Source: a virus. From it: a stretch of 35,364 nucleotides of DNA. Positions 2,206 to 19,254 of the stretch are shown in pieces. The stretch is taken from positions 1 through 35,364 of the IMG/VR virus record IMGVR_UViG_3300002242_000631. The stretch is one strand, 5' to 3'. The notes under the pieces are model-generated. The model saw only the letters and a list, made by a program, of their open reading frames with translations, was not told the origin of the DNA and did no database searches. The position numbers were made by a program, and so were the translations under genes. How positions within the stretch are numbered: position 1 is the first letter of the stretch; each line of letters starts with the position of its first letter.

Positions 2206-2229
2206 GATTTGAAGGAGTCTACTATGGAA
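2206..2229 (+). repeat. Direct repeat, left copy, at the edge of the transport cassette
   Basis: The left copy of a 24-bp direct repeat has one mismatch to its partner at 4386-4409. It contains GATTTGAAGGAGTCT, then the start codon and first codon of the gene. It covers the ribosome binding site and start of the TctA-like gene; the right copy does the same for the terminase gene. A shorter copy, TTGAAGGAGTC, lies at 3521-3531 before the binding-protein gene. A shared translation-initiation block at both edges of a two-gene insert fits acquisition by recombination or duplication at this site. Confidence 0.8.
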
Positions 2230-3519
2230 TTATTAATAGTTATATTTTTAGGAATATTCGTAGGGATATTAACAGGACTACTGCCAGCACTTCCGGTATT
2301 TACAGGTCCTTTCATATTGTACTACTTCCATTCTGATTTACAAATAGAATCTCTTTTAGTATTCTGGTTAGCAGTTGTTTCAGGTTCTCAATTCTTTGGG
2401 TCTGTGGCTGTGATAACTACAAGAATACCAGGTGAAGAGTCTTCTACTATTTACCTCAATGATCTTAAAAATATACCTATTAATATAAAGAACCACCTGT
2501 TGTATGATACGGCTTTGGGTTCTTATATTTCAGGAATATTTGGTGTTCTAGTGATGTGGTTCTTACTCACTAATATGAACATAGACATACTGCCAACTTT
2601 AATGAGTTTGGATTTCCAGATAGTTATTTACACATTGGCTTTGTTGTCATTCTTTCTTGTAAATAAATCACTGTATTGGACTTTAGGATTGATATCTTTA
2701 GGTATTATCATTGGTCCTAGAAACAACTATGCATTAGATGATTCTTGGTACCAGGTTCAAGAACTGTTCCAAGGTTACACCTTCTATATGGTAATACTAG
2801 GTTTAGTACTTCTCCCTGAGATTGCATCAAGAGCCGATAAACAAGACTTAGGAGCTGGGACATATAAAGCTATCAAGAGTAAGTTCAATTGGTTTCTAGC
2901 CTTTAAAAGCAGTCTAATAGGCTCCTTATCTGGTTTAATACCTGGACCCTCTGCATCATTGGGCTCCACCTATGCATATAGATTAGCTGGTAAAGATACG
3001 AGTAATAAAATTATAGCTGCAGAAACAGCCAATAACGGTGCTGTAATAACAGCTGCAATACCTCTGTTACTCCTAGCTTTACCTATAAACATAAACACAA
3101 TGATCATGTCTAACTTAATGGATATTAAGAGTATTGATCTTCCAATAGAGATTTTAGAATCTAGTAGTGTTTTTCCAACACTATCGGTTTCTGAAGTGAT
3201 GATGATGTCATTAACATTTTGCTTGACTTTGTATTATTTTCTATCCACTCATTTAATTGATTGGTATGTGAATATCATAAAGACATTGCATGATAATATA
3301 AGACTAATACTGATAACTATTTTAGTCTTATTAATCGGGGTGGATTTGTACTCATCAGAGATAACTTTGGTAAGGTATGTTACCTTGTTATCTTTTTTTA
3401 GCCTAATAGGGTTTTTCTTGAAAAAACACCAGATCAACCCTATTGTATTACTGTTCAGTATTATATTAAGCGATAAATTGATATGGCTGTACATACAGGC
3501 CGGTAAGATATATTTTTAA
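2224..3519 (+). CDS. TctA-family transporter membrane subunit (tripartite tricarboxylate type)
   Basis: This 431-residue, very hydrophobic protein has about ten or more likely membrane spans. The TctA hallmarks appear twice, as expected for the internally repeated TctA fold. The N-terminal half has GILTGLLPALP (about 14-24) and a later IPGEESS segment (68-74). The second half has GSLSGLIPGPSASLG (233-247), then AAETANNGAVITAAIPLLLLALPI (about 265-288, TctA-type core). In cells TctA forms the large channel subunit of a secondary transporter for carboxylates, with small TctB and periplasmic TctC. It is shorter than the usual ~500 residues and no TctB is visible. I start it at the ATG at 2224 behind AAGGAGT rather than the TTG at 2209, which lies in the ribosome binding region. 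It pairs with the secreted binding protein that follows. Confidence 0.85.
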   Translation: MELLIVIFLGIFVGILTGLLPALPVFTGPFILYYFHSDLQIESLLVFWLAVVSGSQFFGSVAVITTRIPGEESSTIYLNDLKNIPINIKNHLLYDTALGSYISGIFGVLVMWFLLTNMNIDILPTLMSLDFQIVIYTLALLSFFLVNKSLYWTLGLISLGIIIGPRNNYALDDSWYQVQELFQGYTFYMVILGLVLLPEIASRADKQDLGAGTYKAIKSKFNWFLAFKSSLIGSLSGLIPGPSASLGSTYAYRLAGKDTSNKIIAAETANNGAVITAAIPLLLLALPININTMIMSNLMDIKSIDLPIEILESSSVFPTLSVSEVMMMSLTFCLTLYYFLSTHLIDWYVNIIKTLHDNIRLILITILVLLIGVDLYSSEITLVRYVTLLSFFSLIGFFLKKHQINPIVLLFSIILSDKLIWLYIQAGKIYF

Positions 3520-3538
3520 CTTGAAGGAGTCATAACAG

Positions 3539-4357
3539 ATGAAAAAACAAATAATTACAATTCTATCGGCTATATCTTTAACAGCCTCTGCTGGTTGGTT
3601 CGGCAATGATAATAACACTATTATTAACACCTCAAGCAAGGCCAGTCCTGCTACTACATTCAGTATGGCTTATAAGAAAGCAACAGGTTCTGATTGGTAT
3701 CAATCCTCAAATTGTGAAGATGGGAATGTGGCTTTTAGAAATACAGATAACTCTATTATGTCGTACAACAGCTCTATCGAGTTTGCGGCCCGTAACAAGG
3801 GATTGAATTGCAAGCTAGAGGGTGTTAAAACTGATGATGTTCTATTTATCGGATACACACCTGTACATCTTTGCAGAGCTAAAGGTTCTGATGTTGATTT
3901 TGGACAAACTAGTAATCGCACACTAGGCATGGCCTCTATGTATGCAACTAAGGAACATGAGAATAGGATGAATGAGGCAGGGGCTAATGTAACTATTGTC
4001 CCTTACTCAGGGTCTAAAACTGTACTCATAGCCTTAAGAGCTGGTGACTTAGATTTAGGATGGATTGGGTCGGGTTTAGCAATGAAGCATTCAGATAAGA
4101 TTGACTGTATGTATTCTACTGATCCTTCTGTAGGGAACTACGTAGGAAACAAATTACCACATTTATCTGTTCCTGATTTTAGAATTACCTTCGTACTGTA
4201 CGGTGAAGGTGACAAGCCCTCACTTGATAATGAAGCGTTTTCTAAATTCTTAAAGAGTAAGAACATTACTGAAGTACCTGTAACAGATGAAAATGTGCAA
4301 GGTGTCATTGATTATGTAGATACTATGTTTGAGAATTGGTCAGATAAATCTAAATAA
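3539..4357 (+). CDS. Secreted TctC-like solute-binding protein
   Basis: The 272-residue protein starts with a Sec signal peptide: MKKQ, a hydrophobic stretch ITILSAISLTA, and a probable cut after ASA near residue 18. The mature part resembles the TctC/Bug family of periplasmic carboxylate-binding proteins. It has FIGYTPVHLCRAKGSDVDFG at about residues 103-122 and VPYSGSKTVLIALRAGDLDLGW at about 153-174, matching the family's 'VPYKG...L..G..D' ligand region. Four or more cysteines suggest disulphides. It follows the TctA-like gene by 19 bases with its own TTGAAGGAGTC site, so the two form a permease-plus-receptor pair. The family call is by motif pattern only and the ligand cannot be read. Such a pair in a phage is unusual. 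Confidence 0.7.
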   Translation: MKKQIITILSAISLTASAGWFGNDNNTIINTSSKASPATTFSMAYKKATGSDWYQSSNCEDGNVAFRNTDNSIMSYNSSIEFAARNKGLNCKLEGVKTDDVLFIGYTPVHLCRAKGSDVDFGQTSNRTLGMASMYATKEHENRMNEAGANVTIVPYSGSKTVLIALRAGDLDLGWIGSGLAMKHSDKIDCMYSTDPSVGNYVGNKLPHLSVPDFRITFVLYGEGDKPSLDNEAFSKFLKSKNITEVPVTDENVQGVIDYVDTMFENWSDKSK

Positions 4358-4364
4358 GTTTTAA

Positions 4365-4378
4365 GGGGCTTTGGTCCC
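4365..4378 (+). other. Small hairpin between the transport cassette and terL
   Basis: GGGGC at 4365-4369 can pair with GTCCC at 4374-4378, including one G-U pair, around a TTTG loop. There is no T-run behind it, so I do not call it a terminator. Its 5' half, AAGGGGCTTT, resembles the start of the real terminator at 10637. It could be a decayed terminator brought in with the cassette or a weak translational element. Confidence 0.25.
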
Positions 4379-4385
4379 GTCTATG

Positions 4386-4409
4386 GATTTGAAGGAGTCT
4401 AATATGGAA
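4386..4409 (+). repeat. Direct repeat, right copy, at the terL start
   Basis: The right partner of the repeat at 2206-2229 has 23 of 24 bases identical. It holds the ribosome binding site and start of the large terminase gene. The 2180 bp from one repeat start to the next contain exactly the TctA-like and TctC-like genes. Recombination between the copies would remove both genes and leave terL with an intact initiation site. Confidence 0.8.
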
Positions 4410-6056
4410 GGATTAATTAAAGATACTAAAGAAGCTAAGTATCGACAGTTAGAATTAAAAAGAGAACTTCTTAAGAGAGAGAAAGATAAGAAGTACATCG
4501 AAAGCTTTAAAGAATTTGCTGGAGATAATCTTAGGATTATTACTAAAGATGCTTCAGCGGGCTACGTTCCTTTTAGGTTTAATGAAGCACAGAGAAATAT
4601 CGATGATGCTGTCAGTAAGCAACTAAAAGAAACAGGTAAGGTTAGGGCTCTCATATTGAAAGCTAGACAACAAGGTATTTCAACCTACACTGCTGGGAGA
4701 GTCTTTTGGAAGACTTTCTACACTCCCAACACTAGATCGGTTGTGATTGCACATGATAGTGCTACATCAGATGCTTTGTTCACAATGTCTAAGAATTATA
4801 TTGATGAGATGCCTGAAAGTGTAAGACCTGAGTTACAGAAGTCGAATGCAAAAGAGATTAAGTTCGCTCATAATGACTCAGGCTATCGCCTTTACACTGC
4901 AGGTTCTGCAGAGGCCGGTAGGGGAACTACCCCCACCATCCTACACGCTTCCGAGTGTGCCTTTTGGCAACATGATGAGAAGATCTTGGCAGGTTTATTC
5001 CAAGGTGTTTCATCTTCGGACGGCACAGAAATTATATTAGAATCCACAGCGAATGGTGCCACTGGTGCCTTTCATAGATTATGGAAGTCTACTATAAATG
5101 GAGATACTGACTACGTAGCTATATTCTTACCGTGGTTTTTGACCAATGAATATAGAACAAAGGTCCCAGAGGGTCTAGAGTTAGAAACAGAAGAAAAAGC
5201 TTTAATGGAGAAGTTTGATCTGGATATTGACCAGATCTATTGGAGAAGACTTAAGATTGCCGAGTCAGGTGAATTGAAGTTTAGACAAGAGTATCCTGCT
5301 ACTGCTGAAGAGGCTTTCATTGTTTCTGGTAATAGTGTATTCAATGGTGAAAAACTAAATGCATTAGAAGTAAAACCTGCTAAGACCAAAAGGTACTTAG
5401 ATACAGAGTTATCCACTTGGGAGGTGTCTCCTGATGGCCCCCTAGAGATATGGAAAGCCCCTGATTTTGAAAGTAATTACATTATCGGTGCTGACGTAGC
5501 TATGGGTGTAGGACAAGATTATAGTGTTGCTACTATTCTTAATAAGGATAGAGAAGTAGTTGCTCTATATAGAGATAACCGTATTGACCCTGCTGCTTTC
5601 GGAGCGTTGTTATTCTACTTAGGTAGATACTACAATAATGCCTTAGTAGCTGTGGAGTCTAACAGTATGGGTATTGCTACTTTGCAGAAGTTAAAAGAGA
5701 TGAAATATGTCAATCTATACTTTCAAACTAAGGTTGCAAATGTTTCTAAAGAAGAAGGTACTAGACTAGGTTGGAGAACTACACAAGCCTCTAAACAGTC
5801 TATTATTAGTAATCTAAAGAACTGGGTTGAGAATGACGATATTGCTATTTACTCAGCTAAGATAGTTAGTGAGATGAAAGACTACGTATCAAATGAACAA
5901 GGGAAGACTAATGCCATCCCTGGCTCTCATGACGATACTGTTATGTCTTTAGCAATTACAGCAGAAGTGTGGAGAACCCACTCTGATAAGTTAACCAATG
6001 AGAGAGTAAGTTTTGAAAACATGTGGACTGAACAAGAAGAGAAGTCCTGGATATAA
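4404..6056 (+). CDS. terL: Terminase large subunit
   Basis: This is the ATP-driven DNA-packaging motor and headful nuclease. With the ATG at 4404 (behind GAAGGAGT) it has 550 residues, normal for the family. An upstream in-frame TTG at 4371 and ATG at 4383 lie before the ribosome binding site. The ATPase domain has a Walker A-like LKARQQGIST at about 85-94, a Walker B-like TILHASECAF at 178-187 and the coupling motif ESTANG at 213-218. The RNase H-like nuclease domain shows acidic residues at D364 (IIGADVAMG), E418 (AVESNSMG) and D510/D511 (GSHDDTVMSL). All motifs are intact. It is followed 14 bases later by the portal gene, the usual order. Confidence 0.95.
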   Translation: MEGLIKDTKEAKYRQLELKRELLKREKDKKYIESFKEFAGDNLRIITKDASAGYVPFRFNEAQRNIDDAVSKQLKETGKVRALILKARQQGISTYTAGRVFWKTFYTPNTRSVVIAHDSATSDALFTMSKNYIDEMPESVRPELQKSNAKEIKFAHNDSGYRLYTAGSAEAGRGTTPTILHASECAFWQHDEKILAGLFQGVSSSDGTEIILESTANGATGAFHRLWKSTINGDTDYVAIFLPWFLTNEYRTKVPEGLELETEEKALMEKFDLDIDQIYWRRLKIAESGELKFRQEYPATAEEAFIVSGNSVFNGEKLNALEVKPAKTKRYLDTELSTWEVSPDGPLEIWKAPDFESNYIIGADVAMGVGQDYSVATILNKDREVVALYRDNRIDPAAFGALLFYLGRYYNNALVAVESNSMGIATLQKLKEMKYVNLYFQTKVANVSKEEGTRLGWRTTQASKQSIISNLKNWVENDDIAIYSAKIVSEMKDYVSNEQGKTNAIPGSHDDTVMSLAITAEVWRTHSDKLTNERVSFENMWTEQEEKSWI

Positions 6057-6070
6057 AATAGGAGATTATA

Positions 6071-8125
6071 GTGGCAGAGAAAGGTGAGAGCAAGATAAAA
6101 GAAGTCACAGACGAAGAACTGACTAGTATTATCGATACTTATGTAAACCAAGCTGCAGGTGGCCTTACTACGGGTTCTGAATTGTCCTCTCAAAGAGAAG
6201 ATGCTATGGACTACTATACACAACAGGCTCGTGGCAGGTTGACACCTACTGGTGTATCGTCAGTAGTTACATCTGACACAATGGAGATTATCGACTCATA
6301 CTTAGCAGTTATATCTGAGCTAATGTTATCTAATAGTAAGATTGCAAGATTCAACCCTAAAGATCCTACAGAATCTCAAGCTGCTAAGTTGGCCTCTGAG
6401 ATAACTAATGATTGTATCTTTGAAATGAACAACGGATGGGTAGAATTAAATACTTGGATCAAATCAGCTTTACTCTTTAAAAACGCCTCTATAAGATGGA
6501 GATGGGATGAGAAGATAGAGTATGAATTTGAGGAGTACGAAAACATAACATCTGTTGAAATAGATACAATCATCTCTGACCCTAGTATTGAGGTGGTTGA
6601 ATTAGTATCTAAAGAAGTTATAGCATATCAAGACGATGGTTCAGGACAAGAGACTCCTCCTCAAAATATTGATACATACGGATATGTTAAGATCAAGAGA
6701 GCTATTGATAAATCTAAGATAGTTTTAGAAAATATACCACCTGAGTCTTTCCTTATTGACAAGGACACAACATCGATTTTGGATGCCAAGTATGTAGGTA
6801 TCCAAACAGAATACACTATCTCTGATTTAAGAGAGATGGGTTTTGAGAATGTCGATGATATAGCAGATGATGGTAATATAAGAAACGGCTTCACCAATGA
6901 AGACTACACTAGACAAGCACTTAACGGAACCTCTTTAGCAGGTTTCAATAATGAAGACCCTGAAGATTCTTCTATGAGAGAGGTTTATGTAACCGAGAGC
7001 TGGTTAAGAGTAGATAGAGATGGTGATGGTATTGCAGAGCTTAAAAGAGTTATCAGTGTAGGTGATACTATATTACTAGAGGAAGATGCTAAAAGTATCC
7101 CTATTGCTAACTTGAATCCTATTGAGATTCCTTATGCTTTCTACGGTATTTCTATGGCAGATGCCACTAAGAGTGCTACCGAAGTTAAGACAGCTATTAC
7201 TAGAGGTATTGTAGAAAATATCTACTTAACTAACTACAGCAGAATCCTAGCAGATCCTAACACGGTAGACTTCAGAGCCTTACAAAGCCCTGAGCCTCAC
7301 CAGATCATTCCTACTAACGGTAATCCACTAAGTGCTGTACAACAGATACAGCCGTCAACAATTTCTCCTTCGTCATTCTCTCTATTAGAGTTTATGAATA
7401 ATGAGAAAGAGACGGCCACTGGTATGTCTAGAACAGCCCAAGGTATTAACTCTGATTTATTTAAGTCGGGTAACGATGCTAATAAAGTATCTATGATTGA
7501 ACAAGCCTCTCAGAAGAGAATTGCTTATATCGCTAGACGATTTGCTGAGACAGGTTTTGCTGATATGTGTAAAGGTGTGTACAGTCTTATTCTGGATAAT
7601 GCAGACTCTGTACTAGAGAAATACTCTTACTACAACTTGACACCTGATATGCTTAAGCCGTTCGATAGCCTAACTGTTGATGTTGATGTTGGTTCTAATA
7701 GCAGTACTAATACTAAAGAGAATATGACTGTCATGATGACTCAGATCATGCCCGCCTTATATCAGACACCAGAGTCTAAGAGTATTATTAACCCTGCTGC
7801 TCCATTTAACATTGCTAAACAAATGTTAGAGTCTATGGGGATCAACAATTGGCCTGACTTTATTGTTGACCCTAGTACTCAGGAAGGACAACAAGCCGCC
7901 CAGATGGTACAACAACAAAATGAACAATCTAAACAAGAAGATCAAAGATTAACTGCTGTAGAAGAGCAGAAGGTCATGATTGAACTTGAGAAGCAGAAGG
8001 TTGAAATTGAAGCTAAACTTGCTAAGATGAAATTGGATGAAGATAAGTTTGCTCACCAAGTTGCTAAGGATAAGGCTGAGGTTGCTTTGGAAGAGTCTCA
8101 AAAGAGACCTATTGGTATTGGATAA
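6071..8125 (+). CDS. Portal protein
   Basis: Portal proteins form the dodecameric ring at the head vertex through which DNA passes. This one has a GTG start at 6071 behind AGGAGA, and 684 residues. The length, the position directly after the terminase, and the segment ETATGMSRTAQGINSDLF (about 443-460) followed by an Arg-rich helix with RRFAETGF are typical of large podovirus portals of the P22-like kind. An acidic DxDGDG stretch (DRDGDGIAEL, about 317-326) looks like a calcium-type loop. The last 70 residues are a Gln/Glu/Lys-rich coiled coil, where P22-type portals have their barrel helix. I cannot name the exact family from sequence alone. Confidence 0.85.
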   Translation: MAEKGESKIKEVTDEELTSIIDTYVNQAAGGLTTGSELSSQREDAMDYYTQQARGRLTPTGVSSVVTSDTMEIIDSYLAVISELMLSNSKIARFNPKDPTESQAAKLASEITNDCIFEMNNGWVELNTWIKSALLFKNASIRWRWDEKIEYEFEEYENITSVEIDTIISDPSIEVVELVSKEVIAYQDDGSGQETPPQNIDTYGYVKIKRAIDKSKIVLENIPPESFLIDKDTTSILDAKYVGIQTEYTISDLREMGFENVDDIADDGNIRNGFTNEDYTRQALNGTSLAGFNNEDPEDSSMREVYVTESWLRVDRDGDGIAELKRVISVGDTILLEEDAKSIPIANLNPIEIPYAFYGISMADATKSATEVKTAITRGIVENIYLTNYSRILADPNTVDFRALQSPEPHQIIPTNGNPLSAVQQIQPSTISPSSFSLLEFMNNEKETATGMSRTAQGINSDLFKSGNDANKVSMIEQASQKRIAYIARRFAETGFADMCKGVYSLILDNADSVLEKYSYYNLTPDMLKPFDSLTVDVDVGSNSSTNTKENMTVMMTQIMPALYQTPESKSIINPAAPFNIAKQMLESMGINNWPDFIVDPSTQEGQQAAQMVQQQNEQSKQEDQRLTAVEEQKVMIELEKQKVEIEAKLAKMKLDEDKFAHQVAKDKAEVALEESQKRPIGIG

Positions 8126-13672: not shown

Positions 13673-14782
13673 ATGGGTTATTACTATAGACACCCGTCTG
13701 TTATAGAACCAACAGAAGACGAGATGAAGGACTACGTATTAACTAAGGTTTTATCAAGAGACTTTGATGCTGCTATAGTAGATAGGACAGGTGTCTTAAA
13801 TAACTTTTGTGAAATACTTAAACCTATACCTCTTGAAAACCCTTTAGATCTGGAATTTAATGATGTTGTGGACCAAAGGGCTAAAGAGATAGTAGATGAT
13901 GCTATATCTAATAATAAAGAAGTAAGAATACTTTGGGACTCAGGTCTTACAAGTTCTATGATATTTCTATCTATTTCTAAATATAGAGACTCTGTTAATC
14001 CTGATCTTGTTTTAAAGCTATTTCCTACATTTAAAAGTCAGGAAAGATGGCATGGTTTTTATGATGAAATAATACTTAAAACACCTAATGTAGATATCTT
14101 TGAACCTAAGGGATCTACTGCTTGGAAGAACACACACCAACGTATGTGGAGTAGCGGGGACAGTGATGGTAATCTAGTTAAATTCACAGTAGTCACTCCA
14201 GATCTAACTGATCCATTATTGGGTCCAAGGTTGATGCTTAAGAAGGATTTTGAGAGTTTAAATAAACCACATGATCAAGTATTTAACCCTGACATACTTT
14301 GTTGTCTAGAAGGCATAATTGAAAAGATGCCACCTAGATTAGGGAGTAAGACTGCAGGGAATGTTCTTAATTGGCTTAACTTTGTACTATCTTGGCAGTG
14401 GAATCTACTCAGGAGATGGATGAACTCACCTACTGATAGAAGCAATATTAGTATATTCTATGACCACGATTTATTTCAACAATGGTTCTTACAAACACCT
14501 CTTGTGGAGAAGTGGCCTGATGTAGGTCATGATGTTCTTCAGAACTCTTGGCATGTGAGAGAATATATAAGACAGTATTATGATGATTTTGTATTGGGTA
14601 AAAAGGAATACATCCAACAGCTTAGTATACAAATTAATACACCGATAGATGTACCACCACCCCTAAGGGAAGACAGGGATAACAACTCTGTTTGGACAGG
14701 TATAACTACAGGGTTTGTTAAGGAACAAAAGGTTATTGAGCCTATCATTGTTAATACAGTAGACGATGAACACGAACATTAA
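13673..14782 (+). CDS. Asparagine-synthetase-like PP-loop protein, probably inactive
   Basis: This 369-residue protein is a clear paralogue of the product of 16590-17900. It shares HDQVFNPDI...MP...GNVLNWLNFVLSWQW (about 200-243) and FYDHDLFQQWFLQ (262-274). The ATP-binding PP-loop, SGGIDS in its relatives, reads DSGLTS here (about 89-94). The second nucleotide-site motif, TGELGDQVFG in the paralogue, reads TPDLTDPLLG (about 175-184). Both are broken, so it is probably a pseudoenzyme acting as a partner or scaffold. There is no N-terminal Cys, and the ~85-residue N-terminal part does not look like a glutaminase domain. It begins 11 bases after the fibre gene, and its C-terminus ends in an acidic His-containing tail. 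Confidence 0.8.
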   Translation: MGYYYRHPSVIEPTEDEMKDYVLTKVLSRDFDAAIVDRTGVLNNFCEILKPIPLENPLDLEFNDVVDQRAKEIVDDAISNNKEVRILWDSGLTSSMIFLSISKYRDSVNPDLVLKLFPTFKSQERWHGFYDEIILKTPNVDIFEPKGSTAWKNTHQRMWSSGDSDGNLVKFTVVTPDLTDPLLGPRLMLKKDFESLNKPHDQVFNPDILCCLEGIIEKMPPRLGSKTAGNVLNWLNFVLSWQWNLLRRWMNSPTDRSNISIFYDHDLFQQWFLQTPLVEKWPDVGHDVLQNSWHVREYIRQYYDDFVLGKKEYIQQLSIQINTPIDVPPPLREDRDNNSVWTGITTGFVKEQKVIEPIIVNTVDDEHEH

Positions 14783-14794
14783 CGGAGAGATGCA

Positions 14795-16054
14795 ATGTCT
14801 GTAAACGGTAAAAGTTACATACTTAGACAATTAGATCATTTAATTGCTAAACAAGTAGGTACACAAGACAACCCAAGTGGAGTAAGAACGGATATCGCTA
14901 GAAGGGTTAAACAGTTTGTTCTTGATGCTAAGTCAGACGGTGAGGCTATTGATATATTCAACAGGCACTTCGATTGGAGATTTGACACCGTATCAGGTAA
15001 GGAGCAAAAGTTTCAAATTGAAATGGCTGAATATTTAGGCCCTGAGGTTGTTGAAAAGTATGTTCCTGTACTAACTCATATAGAGAGAACGGATGAAGAG
15101 AAACTCTTAAAGGATGTTGTAAGAGGCAGACCGCTTAATAGATATAATCCAGGATTTAAGACAGTATTATCCCCTATACCGGATGTTACGGAAGATACCC
15201 CTAAGCTTACACTGAAAGAGGTTTGTTCCAAGGCTGCGAATAGGTTTCATGAAATAGGCAAGGGTAAACAAATCTACCTATTGTGGTCTGGTGGTATAGA
15301 TTCTACACTGGTGTTGCACAGCTTGAAAGAAGCAGGTGTCCCATTTAAAGTTATAATGGATGAAGACACCCTAGATGAGCACACAACACTCGCTAAAGAT
15401 TTAATTGCAGGTAGATACAGCTTAATAACTGAGGTTATTTTTTCACCTAAACCACCTGAATACAACAAGTTATTGGGAAACCCTAATAATATATTCATTA
15501 GTGGCGGTAACGGTGATGAGGTATTTGGAGGAGAGGCTGAGTGTGATGGTGAATTTAAGTATGCAGATAATGAATACGGATATTACGCACCAACAGATAT
15601 TGATGAGGTTACCAAGCCTTGGATACAGAAACTTGTAGGTGATATGTCAGATATGACTGTCTGTGAATGGAGATGGGCTGTTAATTTCATCTATAAGTGG
15701 CAACAAGTTCAAATATCTAGTATGTTTATGCTTGGTATTGGTATGGTTGATGGTTTTAATAACCGTAATGGTTACCACTTCTACGACACTGAAGAGTTCC
15801 AGGTCTGGTCTATTCAGAACTACAAGAGCCTCTGTGGTGACAATAAAGACAAAGCGATAGCTAAGAAGGCTATCTTAGACATAGACGGTGATGAGGCTTA
15901 CTATCTTTATAAACGTAAGGTTTGCTCTATGAAGAAGACCCTATACAGGACTGGTAGTGATTTCTTCAAAGAGAAGAAAGTACACACCTACGCAAGTACA
16001 TTAGCTGTCACTGATGCTGAGAGAGATCTAGGTGGTATTTTAAAAGGAGTTTAG
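14795..16054 (+). CDS. Asparagine-synthetase-like PP-loop ATPase
   Basis: The 419-residue protein has intact AsnB-type nucleotide motifs: LLWSGGIDSTLVLHSL at about 162-177 (PP-loop SGGxDS) and FISGGNGDEVFGGE at 234-247 (compare SGEGSDEIFGGY in AsnB). Members of this superfamily adenylate a carboxylate and then form an amide or similar bond. The Cys2-dependent glutaminase half of true AsnB is absent; a ~150-residue helical N-terminal part replaces it. The C-terminal part has WRWAVNFIYKWQ (292-303) and HFYDTEEFQVWSIQN (328-342), shared with its two phage paralogues. The gene ends one base before the small tail-protein ATG. The substrate is unknown. Confidence 0.85.
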   Translation: MSVNGKSYILRQLDHLIAKQVGTQDNPSGVRTDIARRVKQFVLDAKSDGEAIDIFNRHFDWRFDTVSGKEQKFQIEMAEYLGPEVVEKYVPVLTHIERTDEEKLLKDVVRGRPLNRYNPGFKTVLSPIPDVTEDTPKLTLKEVCSKAANRFHEIGKGKQIYLLWSGGIDSTLVLHSLKEAGVPFKVIMDEDTLDEHTTLAKDLIAGRYSLITEVIFSPKPPEYNKLLGNPNNIFISGGNGDEVFGGEAECDGEFKYADNEYGYYAPTDIDEVTKPWIQKLVGDMSDMTVCEWRWAVNFIYKWQQVQISSMFMLGIGMVDGFNNRNGYHFYDTEEFQVWSIQNYKSLCGDNKDKAIAKKAILDIDGDEAYYLYKRKVCSMKKTLYRTGSDFFKEKKVHTYASTLAVTDAERDLGGILKGV

Positions 16055-16055
16055 T

Positions 16056-16574
16056 ATGGCTTTACCTACTAGTAATTTACAGTTTCAACATATTGAGAAT
16101 TTGTTCGGAGGATCACATCCTATATCTCTAAACGAGTACTACGGTTCTACTGGCGGTATCCCTACATCTGGGGCTATATCTATGGAGGATTTCAGAGGTG
16201 CTCAGAATCTTCAGTACATCTCCTTGGGCGGTTATTCACACCAAGACCATTACTACAACTCTGGTACAACATCCCATACTGTGGGCACCCTGACGGTCCC
16301 TAGGACTGCCAGACTGTACAAGGTTTGGATACGTGGATCTACAGGTGATAACATTAGTTCTTATTTAGACAGGTTGTATGTAGGATCGAATCTGGTATGG
16401 GATGGCACCTTATATGATGTGTCTACATCTGGTGATGGTACCGAGTTTACAATAAACACAAGCAGTAACTATGCAGCGGGTAACTATGGTATCAATATGC
16501 AAGTGTACTCTAGCTATGAATCTTATGATAGGATTTATATTAATCAAGTTAAGTTTTATCTAGAGTATTTATAA
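16056..16574 (+). CDS. Small tail or adhesin protein, 172 aa
   Basis: The N-terminus reads LPTSNLQFQHIENLFGGSHP, then ISLNEYYG and IPTSGAISMEDFRGA (about 22-50). This 'LPxSG-ISMxDFxG' pattern is common at the start of phage tail proteins in marine phages. The rest is a Gly/Ser/Tyr-rich beta-type domain (about 55-172) with regular aromatic spacing, which fits a receptor-binding sandwich. It sits between two PP-loop genes, so it is a candidate partner or target of them. Tail association is inference from the motif and the neighbourhood. Confidence 0.7.
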   Translation: MALPTSNLQFQHIENLFGGSHPISLNEYYGSTGGIPTSGAISMEDFRGAQNLQYISLGGYSHQDHYYNSGTTSHTVGTLTVPRTARLYKVWIRGSTGDNISSYLDRLYVGSNLVWDGTLYDVSTSGDGTEFTINTSSNYAAGNYGINMQVYSSYESYDRIYINQVKFYLEYL

Positions 16575-16589
16575 TGAAGGGAAGGGAAT

Positions 16590-17900
16590 ATGTCAGAACT
16601 AACAGGGATATCAACTAATTTTGTTGAAGAGGAAGAATACTTTAAAAAGAGATTGTCTGAGTTTGGAGACTTGAGCTTAAGAGCTCTAAATTGGAGATAC
16701 ACAGATAGGGAATTAGAGTGGAGTAAGGGCTTCTACTATACTAAAAAAAGGGGTGTAGGGCAGACTTATAACAGAACTAGTATGATTGATGTGTTAGGAA
16801 CACTTATGAAGGCTCCTTTAGTGGATAGGACAAGAACTATAGACTCCTACTACTCTCTCATCTCAGAATTACCTGAAATACCTGATTATAAAGTAGATTA
16901 TCACAAAGTATGTGATGATAAAACTATAGAGATATTTGAGGAATGTAGAAGAGATAATAAAGATCTGAGAGTATCCTGGTCTGGAGGTATTGACTCAACT
17001 AACGCCTTGTCTGCTATTTTAAAACACTGGAGTAAGTACCCAGATGTAGAACTCGTTGTGTGTCTTAATCAGAAATCCATCGATGAGTACCCTTGGTTCT
17101 ATGAGAAATACCTCAACCCTGATAATCAAAGTGATATAGTGATACTGATGGGTGACGTTAAAGAACTGTCACACCTAGGTGAGAATGAGGCTCTTGGTCT
17201 TAATATGTCTAAAGATATAGGCAATGGTAAGGATTTCTTAATTGTAACTGGAGAACTTGGTGATCAGGTGTTCGGGGCAAAGATCCTAATTAACGACATT
17301 AAAGAGAATGGTACTGATGGTTTAGTTAATAAACCCTATGAACACGTATTTAGCCCAGATATTAATACATTTATTAAACCAATAGTCGATGTTATGCCAA
17401 AAGATTGGCCTAGAGATTGTGGAAATGTAATGCACTGGCTTAACTTCACACTGAAGTGGCAGTGGTGTCAGTTGAGAATGTTCATGATGTACCCGATAGA
17501 ATATAGGAAATATAGACATTTCTACGATTCAGATGGTTTTCAACAATGGACTATGCAGAATGATATGAGTGTTAAGATGCCTAATTATGACTTAAAGAGG
17601 TACAAAGAAGTTGCTAAAAGATACATAGCTGATTTTACTGGAGATGAAGAATACTTTATCAATAAGGAAAAAGAAGACAGTCAAAGATGTACTATTAATG
17701 TCTTCGGGTCAGATCCCACTATGGAGGGTAAGGACCCAGAGGAAGTGCGTAGACACTGGGAGTCATGTGATATTGACTTTAATAAGAAATGGAAACCTGT
17801 AAGAACTACAGATTCTATCGTAAGAGAGACTAGTGAAGACCTTGATAAGGGGATAAAAGCTGGTATTGAAATAGAAATGAATATCAATTTAGATATTTAA
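16590..17900 (+). CDS. Asparagine-synthetase-like PP-loop ATPase, second active-looking copy
   Basis: The 436-residue protein has VSWSGGIDSTNALSAIL at about 128-144 (intact PP-loop) and VTGELGDQVFGAKI at 219-232. The usual acidic residue D225 is kept, with Gln in place of the following Glu. C-terminal signatures are HWLNFTLKWQW (282-292) and HFYDSDGFQQWTMQN (310-324). It is closest to the inactive copy at 13673 and more distant from the 14795 copy. As in the others there is no glutaminase domain. Three related copies in one tail region argue for a shared function rather than asparagine supply. It ends 14 bases before the DctP-like gene. Confidence 0.85.
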   Translation: MSELTGISTNFVEEEEYFKKRLSEFGDLSLRALNWRYTDRELEWSKGFYYTKKRGVGQTYNRTSMIDVLGTLMKAPLVDRTRTIDSYYSLISELPEIPDYKVDYHKVCDDKTIEIFEECRRDNKDLRVSWSGGIDSTNALSAILKHWSKYPDVELVVCLNQKSIDEYPWFYEKYLNPDNQSDIVILMGDVKELSHLGENEALGLNMSKDIGNGKDFLIVTGELGDQVFGAKILINDIKENGTDGLVNKPYEHVFSPDINTFIKPIVDVMPKDWPRDCGNVMHWLNFTLKWQWCQLRMFMMYPIEYRKYRHFYDSDGFQQWTMQNDMSVKMPNYDLKRYKEVAKRYIADFTGDEEYFINKEKEDSQRCTINVFGSDPTMEGKDPEEVRRHWESCDIDFNKKWKPVRTTDSIVRETSEDLDKGIKAGIEIEMNINLDI

Positions 17901-17914
17901 AATAGGAGAAAACT

Positions 17915-18856
17915 ATGAAAACAATTAAATGGGTTATCGCCCACGAGCCAATTGACTTGTTTCTACGTGCAGCTAACAGATTCGCTGACGATATTAACAG
18001 CAAATCAAACGATTTCAACTTGGAGATCATGACATTACCTGAGTACTCTAATAAGTACAATGACGGTATTAAAGTAGATAAGAATGGTTTGTTAGAAGCT
18101 ATGGAGTCAGGTGATGTTCAAATGTCACAGATGTTCACAACTACCCTAGGTAAAAGTCATAATAAAGACATGTGGGCGTTAGATATGCCTTTCTTATTCA
18201 GAGACCACGACCACGCTAAGAGAGTATTTGATGGTAAGCTTGGGCAGGATATGCTTAAAGGTTTAGCAAAAGACAGTAACGTAAAAGGATTAGCTTTCAC
18301 TTACTCAGGTGGTTTTAGAATGTTACCTTCTGACAGAGATGTATTCTCTATTGAAGACTTGAAAGGTATGAGAGTCCGTACACATGAGCAATCGCCTATC
18401 TCTGCTGAAACATTTAAAGCAGTAGGCGCTACACCTGTACCTCTTACTTTAGAAGAGATTAATGAAGGTGTTGCAAAAGACCTTATTGATAGCGGTGAGT
18501 CTACTTATCCTAGATACTATTCTTTAAAGCAAAATGAAGCTCTACCTACTATTAATGACACTAAGCATAGCTTATTCTTAACATCTATTCTTATCGGTAA
18601 AGATTTCTGGGACAGCATGGATTCCGAGTCTCAAGAGTTAATCCAAACAGCAGCAGTTAGAGCAGCTGAAACTGAACGTGAAGAGTCTATTGCTGATATT
18701 GCACGAGTTGAAGACCAATGTAAAGAAGATGGTATAAACATCGTACACATGTCTGATTTTGAAAGAGACCGGTTTAAAGAAGCTACTGGCTATATGTATT
18801 CTAAGTTTGAAGACCTATTCACACCTGGTCTGTTACAAGCTATTAAAGCTGCTTAG
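17915..18856 (+). CDS. TRAP-type (DctP) solute-binding protein without signal peptide
   Basis: The 313-residue protein keeps the DctP pattern throughout. Residues 64-95 have ESGDVQMSQMFTTTL...WALDMPFLFRD and 146-176 have IEDLKGMRVRTHEQSPISAE...VGATPVPL. The first includes the 'lDlPFLFrd' phrase and the second the conserved carboxylate-binding Arg (R155 in GMRVRT). Near the end is a long helix with FWDSMDSESQELIQTAAVRAA. The start at 17915 has an AGGAGA site and the first residues (MKTIKWVIAHEP) go straight into the fold, so there is no signal peptide. It therefore cannot act as a normal periplasmic receptor unless exported another way. Its place among tail genes suggests a virion part or a cytoplasmic ligand binder. 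Confidence 0.85.
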   Translation: MKTIKWVIAHEPIDLFLRAANRFADDINSKSNDFNLEIMTLPEYSNKYNDGIKVDKNGLLEAMESGDVQMSQMFTTTLGKSHNKDMWALDMPFLFRDHDHAKRVFDGKLGQDMLKGLAKDSNVKGLAFTYSGGFRMLPSDRDVFSIEDLKGMRVRTHEQSPISAETFKAVGATPVPLTLEEINEGVAKDLIDSGESTYPRYYSLKQNEALPTINDTKHSLFLTSILIGKDFWDSMDSESQELIQTAAVRAAETEREESIADIARVEDQCKEDGINIVHMSDFERDRFKEATGYMYSKFEDLFTPGLLQAIKAA

Positions 18857-18858
18857 TT

Positions 18859-19254
18859 ATGAGTAGCAGGGTAGTGCTAGAAAAGGACCCTAATCAGACA
18901 GATATGGGTCTTGAGTCATCCAATGGACTGAGGGATCAATCAATATCAATTTCATTACACGACATAGCGTCATGTGTTATGGTTATTGATGTTATGGATA
19001 AAAGACAGGGCTTCAAGAAGGATGAAGTTTTTGATGTTCTGACTTTAAGAAATAGACTAGCTACATTCTTGAATGAGAATGTTCCTGAAAACTATGACAT
19101 CATGGAAGACAGAGAGAAGGTCCGAGTTTGGGCTGAAAATAACAAGGATAAGGAACCTTTAAGAGATCTAAGGGGTGTTAACCCTGAAGAGGTGGATAAA
19201 CTAGAGGGGGCTGTTGCCTCAAGCCTAGGTGGTGCACCTTTTCCTAGGTCCTAA
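18859..19254 (+). CDS. Hypothetical protein, 131 aa
   Basis: The ATG is two bases after the DctP-like stop and has no clear ribosome binding site, so translation probably depends on the upstream gene. The soluble protein has a helical centre, ISLHDIASCVMVIDVMDKRQ (about 32-51), then FDVLTLRNRLATFLNE (about 58-73), and a Gly/Pro-rich end (SSLGGAPFPRS). I recognise no family. Coupling to the DctP-like gene suggests a joint function or complex. Confidence 0.7.
   Translation: MSSRVVLEKDPNQTDMGLESSNGLRDQSISISLHDIASCVMVIDVMDKRQGFKKDEVFDVLTLRNRLATFLNENVPENYDIMEDREKVRVWAENNKDKEPLRDLRGVNPEEVDKLEGAVASSLGGAPFPRS

Follow-up and report, generated by a model that had tools for sequence, protein, structure and literature searches.

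A putative two-gene TctA/TctC-type transport cassette at a duplicated terL leader in an uncultured phage

The DNA analysed here, hereafter the window, is the whole 35,364-nucleotide stretch of IMG/VR virus record IMGVR_UViG_3300002242_000631. Upstream of terL it carries an interval with a near-identical ribosome-binding leader at each edge. The features of this region are the following:

1304 to 1756, + strand: small gene upstream of the insertion, conserved (85-93% identical in four close relatives)
1840 to 2196, + strand: lysine-rich, highly variable gene of 118 aa, whose positional counterpart directly precedes terL in empty-site relatives
2206 to 2226, + strand: leader copy 1, ribosome-binding block and ATG, now that of the permease (pattern, shuffle and contig searches)
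2224 to 3519, + strand: TctA-like permease, 431 aa (PF01970)
3521 to 3531, + strand: leader core TTGAAGGAGTC before the receptor gene
3539 to 4357, + strand: periplasmic binding protein, 272 aa, predicted TctC/Bug fold, signal-peptide-like N-terminus
4386 to 4406, + strand: leader copy 2, in its original place before terL (terL leaders of relatives, shuffles and contig search)
4404 to 6056, + strand: terL, terminase large subunit, intact, with its start ATG at 4404

A 12-bp stem-loop (1748-1794) overlaps the stop codon of the 1304 gene. It is conserved in six relatives, with both-sided changes at two stem pairs. No Rfam match was obtained for this stem-loop, and a tRNA search gave none.

The permease and terL leaders share 23 of 24 bases (2206-2229 and 4386-4409), and 29 of 32 bases match in the longer comparison of 2206-2237 with 4386-4417. 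The repeated leader reads GATTTGAAGGAGTCTA[A/C]TATG and its copies, starting at 2206 and 4386, lie 2,180 bases apart, at both edges of the cassette. A preliminary description, made from the sequence alone, had placed a 24-bp repeat at these two gene starts and a shorter copy before the middle gene; its coordinates were correct, and the shorter copy is the 11-base core at 3521-3531, upstream of the receptor gene. When searched with up to three mismatches, the 24-base pattern matched the window twice, at the permease and terL leaders, and gave zero matches in 100 dinucleotide shuffles. On the + strand, TTGAAGGAGT has three copies in 35 kb, one upstream of each of the three genes for permease, receptor and terL, and none elsewhere. 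The exact 21-base block was present in four of 2.9 million viral contigs, each time as the terL leader (L003, L004, L005 and L006). The base preceding TATG is C in the permease copy and A in the terL copy of the window. Because the terL leader of L004 also has C and those of L003, L005 and L006 have A, the two copies appear to match two natural leader variants, a correspondence of one base that is only suggestive. The block was absent before TctA in eleven other TctA-receptor pairs, and it can thus be regarded as part of the target and not of the cassette.

The terL gene of the window is 93-95% identical to those of the same four contigs, in which terL lies directly behind an 1840-type gene with a single leader copy. 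These loci represent empty sites. In the more distant L007 and L023 (79-81%), terL directly follows a 1304-type gene, and the cassette was absent from all six relatives examined. Among isolates, the closest terL was that of Roseobacter phage CRP-7. Since the sites of the four closest relatives are empty and bear the leader once, the window would be the filled site, with the target leader duplicated, one copy at each edge of the insert, so that permease and terL each retain a ribosome-binding block. Exactly two genes lie between the leader copies. The preliminary description had interpreted them as a moron, consisting of just a permease and a signal-peptide-bearing receptor, inserted between the small upstream genes and terL through a shared ribosome-binding block, and had proposed looking for relatives with terL behind the 1840 gene. 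Four such genomes were found, and together with the restriction of the block to their terL leaders and its absence before the other TctA genes compared they support this insertion well. Absent at this site in close relatives and leaving its neighbours undisturbed, the cassette corresponds to a phage moron or auxiliary metabolic gene, and comparison of the empty and occupied sites clearly illustrates how a moron can enter a gene leader while the late operon stays intact. The counterpart of the 1840-2196 gene is very divergent and measures 148-197 aa in empty-site relatives versus 118 aa in the window, where the 3' part of the gene may have been replaced when the cassette inserted. As neither a recombinase nor a transposase was found inside the insert, the cassette probably arrived by recombination at the shared leader and not by transposition.

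Two other explanations of this arrangement were considered. The repeat could merely be a strong ribosome-binding sequence common to several genes, in which case the position of the cassette would tell nothing about its origin. Indeed, an AAGGAG core is present in all three leaders and has 17 copies in the window. However, the identity spans 21-24 bases, the distributions of TTGAAGGAGT and of the full block are as narrow as described above, and the leaders of other TctA genes in the family are unrelated. This explanation is already disfavoured and very improbable. It is also quite unlikely that presence of the cassette is the older state and that the relatives lost it exactly, through recombination of the two leader copies. 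Flanking direct repeats permit an exact loop-out, and one site alone cannot separate loop-out from insertion, but the close and outer relatives all lack the cassette, so deletion needs repeated or early losses, and insertion is favoured over loss. Among 33 genes the permease gene ranks lowest in GC, and its codon usage is one of the two that deviate most, which is weak evidence, while the GC of the receptor gene and the GC3 of both genes are ordinary. No clear foreign signature was thus seen in the GC or codon usage of the cassette relative to the 33 genes.

The product of the permease gene matched PF01970 with 123.3 bits (cut-off 28.9, E=1.3e-35) over positions 1-421 of 423, in agreement with the TctA-like identity first assigned to it. 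The TctA motif G-Hy3-G-Hy3-G-Hy2-P-G-Hy-G was then looked for in TM1 and TM7. None of ten family-1 proteins has the exact TM1 motif, since TM1 ends in P-[A/V]-L-P and not in P-G-Hy-G; the glycine spacing before the motif end is largely kept, as is an E-x-A-N-N segment, and TM7 retains P-G, reading P-G-P-S. By its profile the permease is therefore a PF01970 member, though not a canonical TctA. All ten family-1 carriers, that of the bacterial locus L111 among them, cluster in one group of the tree with support 97/96. The viral TctA proteins are 423-434 aa long, versus 490-514 aa for the bacterial ones compared. Neither permease nor receptor was assigned to a PHROGs family. A sequence search found no relative of the permease among solved structures, and its AlphaFold model (pLDDT 67.6) was too poor for a fold search.

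The receptor begins with a signal-peptide-like stretch ending in ASA-G, and four cysteines are conserved across the family. Its structure model (pLDDT 86.8) was compared using Foldseek, where the best 17 matches were all TctC/Bug-type proteins, and VIA-align, where 11 TctC/Bug entries scored Z 17.7-20.5 and the next fold 11.5. The predicted fold is therefore specifically TctC/Bug. No usable family match was obtained by sequence in Pfam or NCBIfam: the window receptor did not match PF03401, and its best relative, that of L088, reached 15.2 bits (cut-off 27). Weak Phosphonate-bd and SsuA matches were rejected as generic binding-protein similarity, because the fold comparison clearly separates TctC/Bug from PhnD-type entries. 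In TctC, a pincer motif P-F-x-A-G-G-x-x-D follows strand 1 (PMC5812351). It is absent from all eight aligned receptors, in which the corresponding loop is serine-rich, [S/A][S/N][K/A]-A-S-P, with A-S-P invariant. Some Bug proteins have hydroxyl side chains in place of the usual residues (PMC5812351). The earlier designation of this protein as TctC-like is thus upheld for its fold and not for its sequence.

The same pair, in the same order, was found in eight other uncultured viral lineages (L002, L084, L085, L088, L089, L090/L091, L092 and L099/L100) at 39-54% identity to the window, with permeases 47-54% and receptors 39-49% identical. The two contigs of L090/L091, and likewise those of L099/L100, seem to be near-copies of each other. 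The viral status of L088 and L099 was confirmed by head-tail connector genes; the others are IMG/VR contigs. The two genes are spaced by -4 to 30 bases in the viral loci and in one bacterial locus. L089 and L090/L091 bear additional TctA-receptor pairs of other families. The window permease had no match in 50,697 phage records or 72,556 plasmids. Neither cassette protein matched phage isolates by tblastn, and the TctA proteins of L089 gave only 22-38% matches there, mostly to unannotated fragments or bacterial contigs. On the cellular side, the carrier scan of bacterial genomes returned a single locus, L111, in the gammaproteobacterial MAG G022, where the pair is isolated among genes that look, by eye, like ordinary chromosomal ones. 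A pattern-based receptor scan of 84,980 species genomes found none, and a receptor profile search in genomes of one class gave one positive out of 369. As the bacterial searches were pattern-limited or covered part of the collections, the cellular count is a lower bound. The recurrence of the pair in many unrelated uncultured phages, against its near-absence from bacterial genomes, suggests that phages have a reduced transporter of their own, an apparently two-component, compact and mainly viral branch of the TTT systems.

A search for TctB (PF07331) in ten viral records and across the entire MAG G022, the sole cellular carrier found, gave no match. The same search found it in both bacterial controls (G544 and G772), which have a canonical TctA, and where the neighbourhood of a bacterial relative was inspected, TctA usually adjoined a gene of TctB size. 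No small membrane gene consistently adjoins the pair, and because the viral carrier is shorter than the bacterial ones compared, TctB is not fused to it. A complete tripartite tricarboxylate transporter, with TctB separate or fused, was thus not found, and a two-component system is the simplest reading. The suggestion that TctB comes from the host or is unnecessary shifts accordingly toward its second half, as none was detected in the viral records or in G022.

Compared with the TctCBA systems (TC 2.A.80; Salmonella TctCBA, Comamonas TpiBA/TphC), the phage pair is alike in its full-length TctA domain, the receptor fold predicted here and the side-by-side carrier and receptor genes. It differs in lacking TctB, in a carrier about 70 aa shorter, in the carrier-receptor order, in the replacement of the TM1 P-G-Hy-G and of the TctC pincer motif, and in being carried by phages. 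Archaeal TctA (arCOG04469) likewise occurs without TctB, but it mostly stands alone with no receptor gene (PMC5898192), while the phage pair always includes one. A tctA domain match whose role is unknown has been reported on viral contigs from SUP05 single cells (Roux et al. 2014, PMC4164917). It is similarly a TctA on a marine viral contig and a putative auxiliary metabolic gene; the accessible part of that report gives the domain match and describes no receptor pair, insertion site or family. TAXI-GltS of Bordetella pertussis is, according to the accessible part of its report (PMC12344293), also a binding-protein-dependent secondary transporter, presented as a new class next to the common tripartite systems, with other receptor and carrier families. 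Some uncultured Caudovirales have genes annotated as Bug/TTT-type binding proteins. A literature search whose coverage left out most subscription papers found neither the pair, nor its missing TctB, nor this insertion described.

Taken together, these features suggest, with a probability of roughly 60%, that a two-gene transport moron, made of a TctA-type carrier and a TctC-fold receptor with no TctB, entered the genome of this uncultured tailed phage precisely at the terL leader and imports an organic anion. The cassette would be co-transcribed with the packaging and head genes, and for this reason its products would be made late. The receptor would be exported, bind a small organic anion, a carboxylate or something similar, and pass it to the carrier, which, with no TctB subunit, would import it by ion symport; the anion could then feed phage production in nutrient-poor cells. 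The most likely role would be to take up an organic anion during the late phase of infection. The predicted fold and the family support the transport reading, and to that extent the carboxylate uptake first proposed; the carboxylate itself is only plausible. With the pincer motif absent and TM1 reading P-[A/V]-L-P, a tricarboxylate should not be assumed, and both substrate and coupling may differ from those of known TTT systems.

The pair could also work only with a TctB, or another small subunit, supplied by the host, and would then be a partner-replacing module. In Comamonas TpiBA both membrane subunits are required for terephthalate uptake, and the very low conservation of TctB makes it difficult to detect by sequence (PMC5812351); a very divergent one could be missed. 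However, G022 had no TctB match while the two bacterial controls were positive, and no small membrane gene is consistently found beside the pair; host supply is rather less probable than a system that does without TctB. The lack of TctB also offers a natural test of whether TTT transport depends on this poorly understood subunit. Superinfection is often blocked by small phage membrane proteins, and the role of the pair could be non-nutritional, for instance superinfection exclusion via the envelope or sensing, with transport secondary. Some TctC-like proteins have been proposed to act in sensing rather than transport (PMC5812351). However, carrier and receptor always occur together with their order kept, and they sometimes lie beside a phosphate-type binding protein (L002 and L085, by eye) or a DctP gene (L084 and L099), all of which fits uptake and makes a non-nutritional role unlikely.

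Phages carry single binding proteins such as PstS. With a complete carrier and receptor pair present across different phages, infected hosts could gain an entire uptake route. We tentatively propose a broader picture, in which minimal two-component systems of a TctA-type carrier and a TctC-fold receptor, with no TctB, form a mainly viral family circulating in uncultured marine phages; phages, not bacteria, would be its main reservoir, and the window copy would be one that landed in a gene leader.

Other transport-related genes were observed in the window and in the viral contigs compared. At 17915-18856 the window encodes a DctP-type TRAP receptor (PF03480, E=5e-45), which starts at the mature domain and, by eye, has no signal peptide. 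Similar DctP genes adjoin the cassette in L084 and L099. DctP was found in 5 of the 23 records searched, and all five also have TctA; two of them are near-identical, and many records are fragments. The DctP gene belongs to a segment (13673-19254) that also contains a small tail-region gene and three related PP-loop-like genes with SGG/SSG motifs, two of which gave weak PAPS-reductase/QueC-like matches. This segment is syntenic with L128 1528-8276, on a 79.5-kb viral contig that also bears a TctA-receptor pair, and the DctP proteins are 67% identical. Similar SGG/SSG-motif genes also lie beside the pairs in L099, L084, L089 and L091. In L089, three TctA genes are present on one viral contig, the third of which looks canonical (E=4e-93) and precedes a possible receptor gene and one for a DUF6552 protein (3603-6345). 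The tail region of the L007 contig (L127 241-6836) has several consecutive CxxxCxxC-type genes that resemble, by eye, radical-SAM proteins. By eye, PstS-like binding proteins lie near the TctA-receptor pair at L002 10764-13295, together with a porin-like gene, and at L085 6801-7808.
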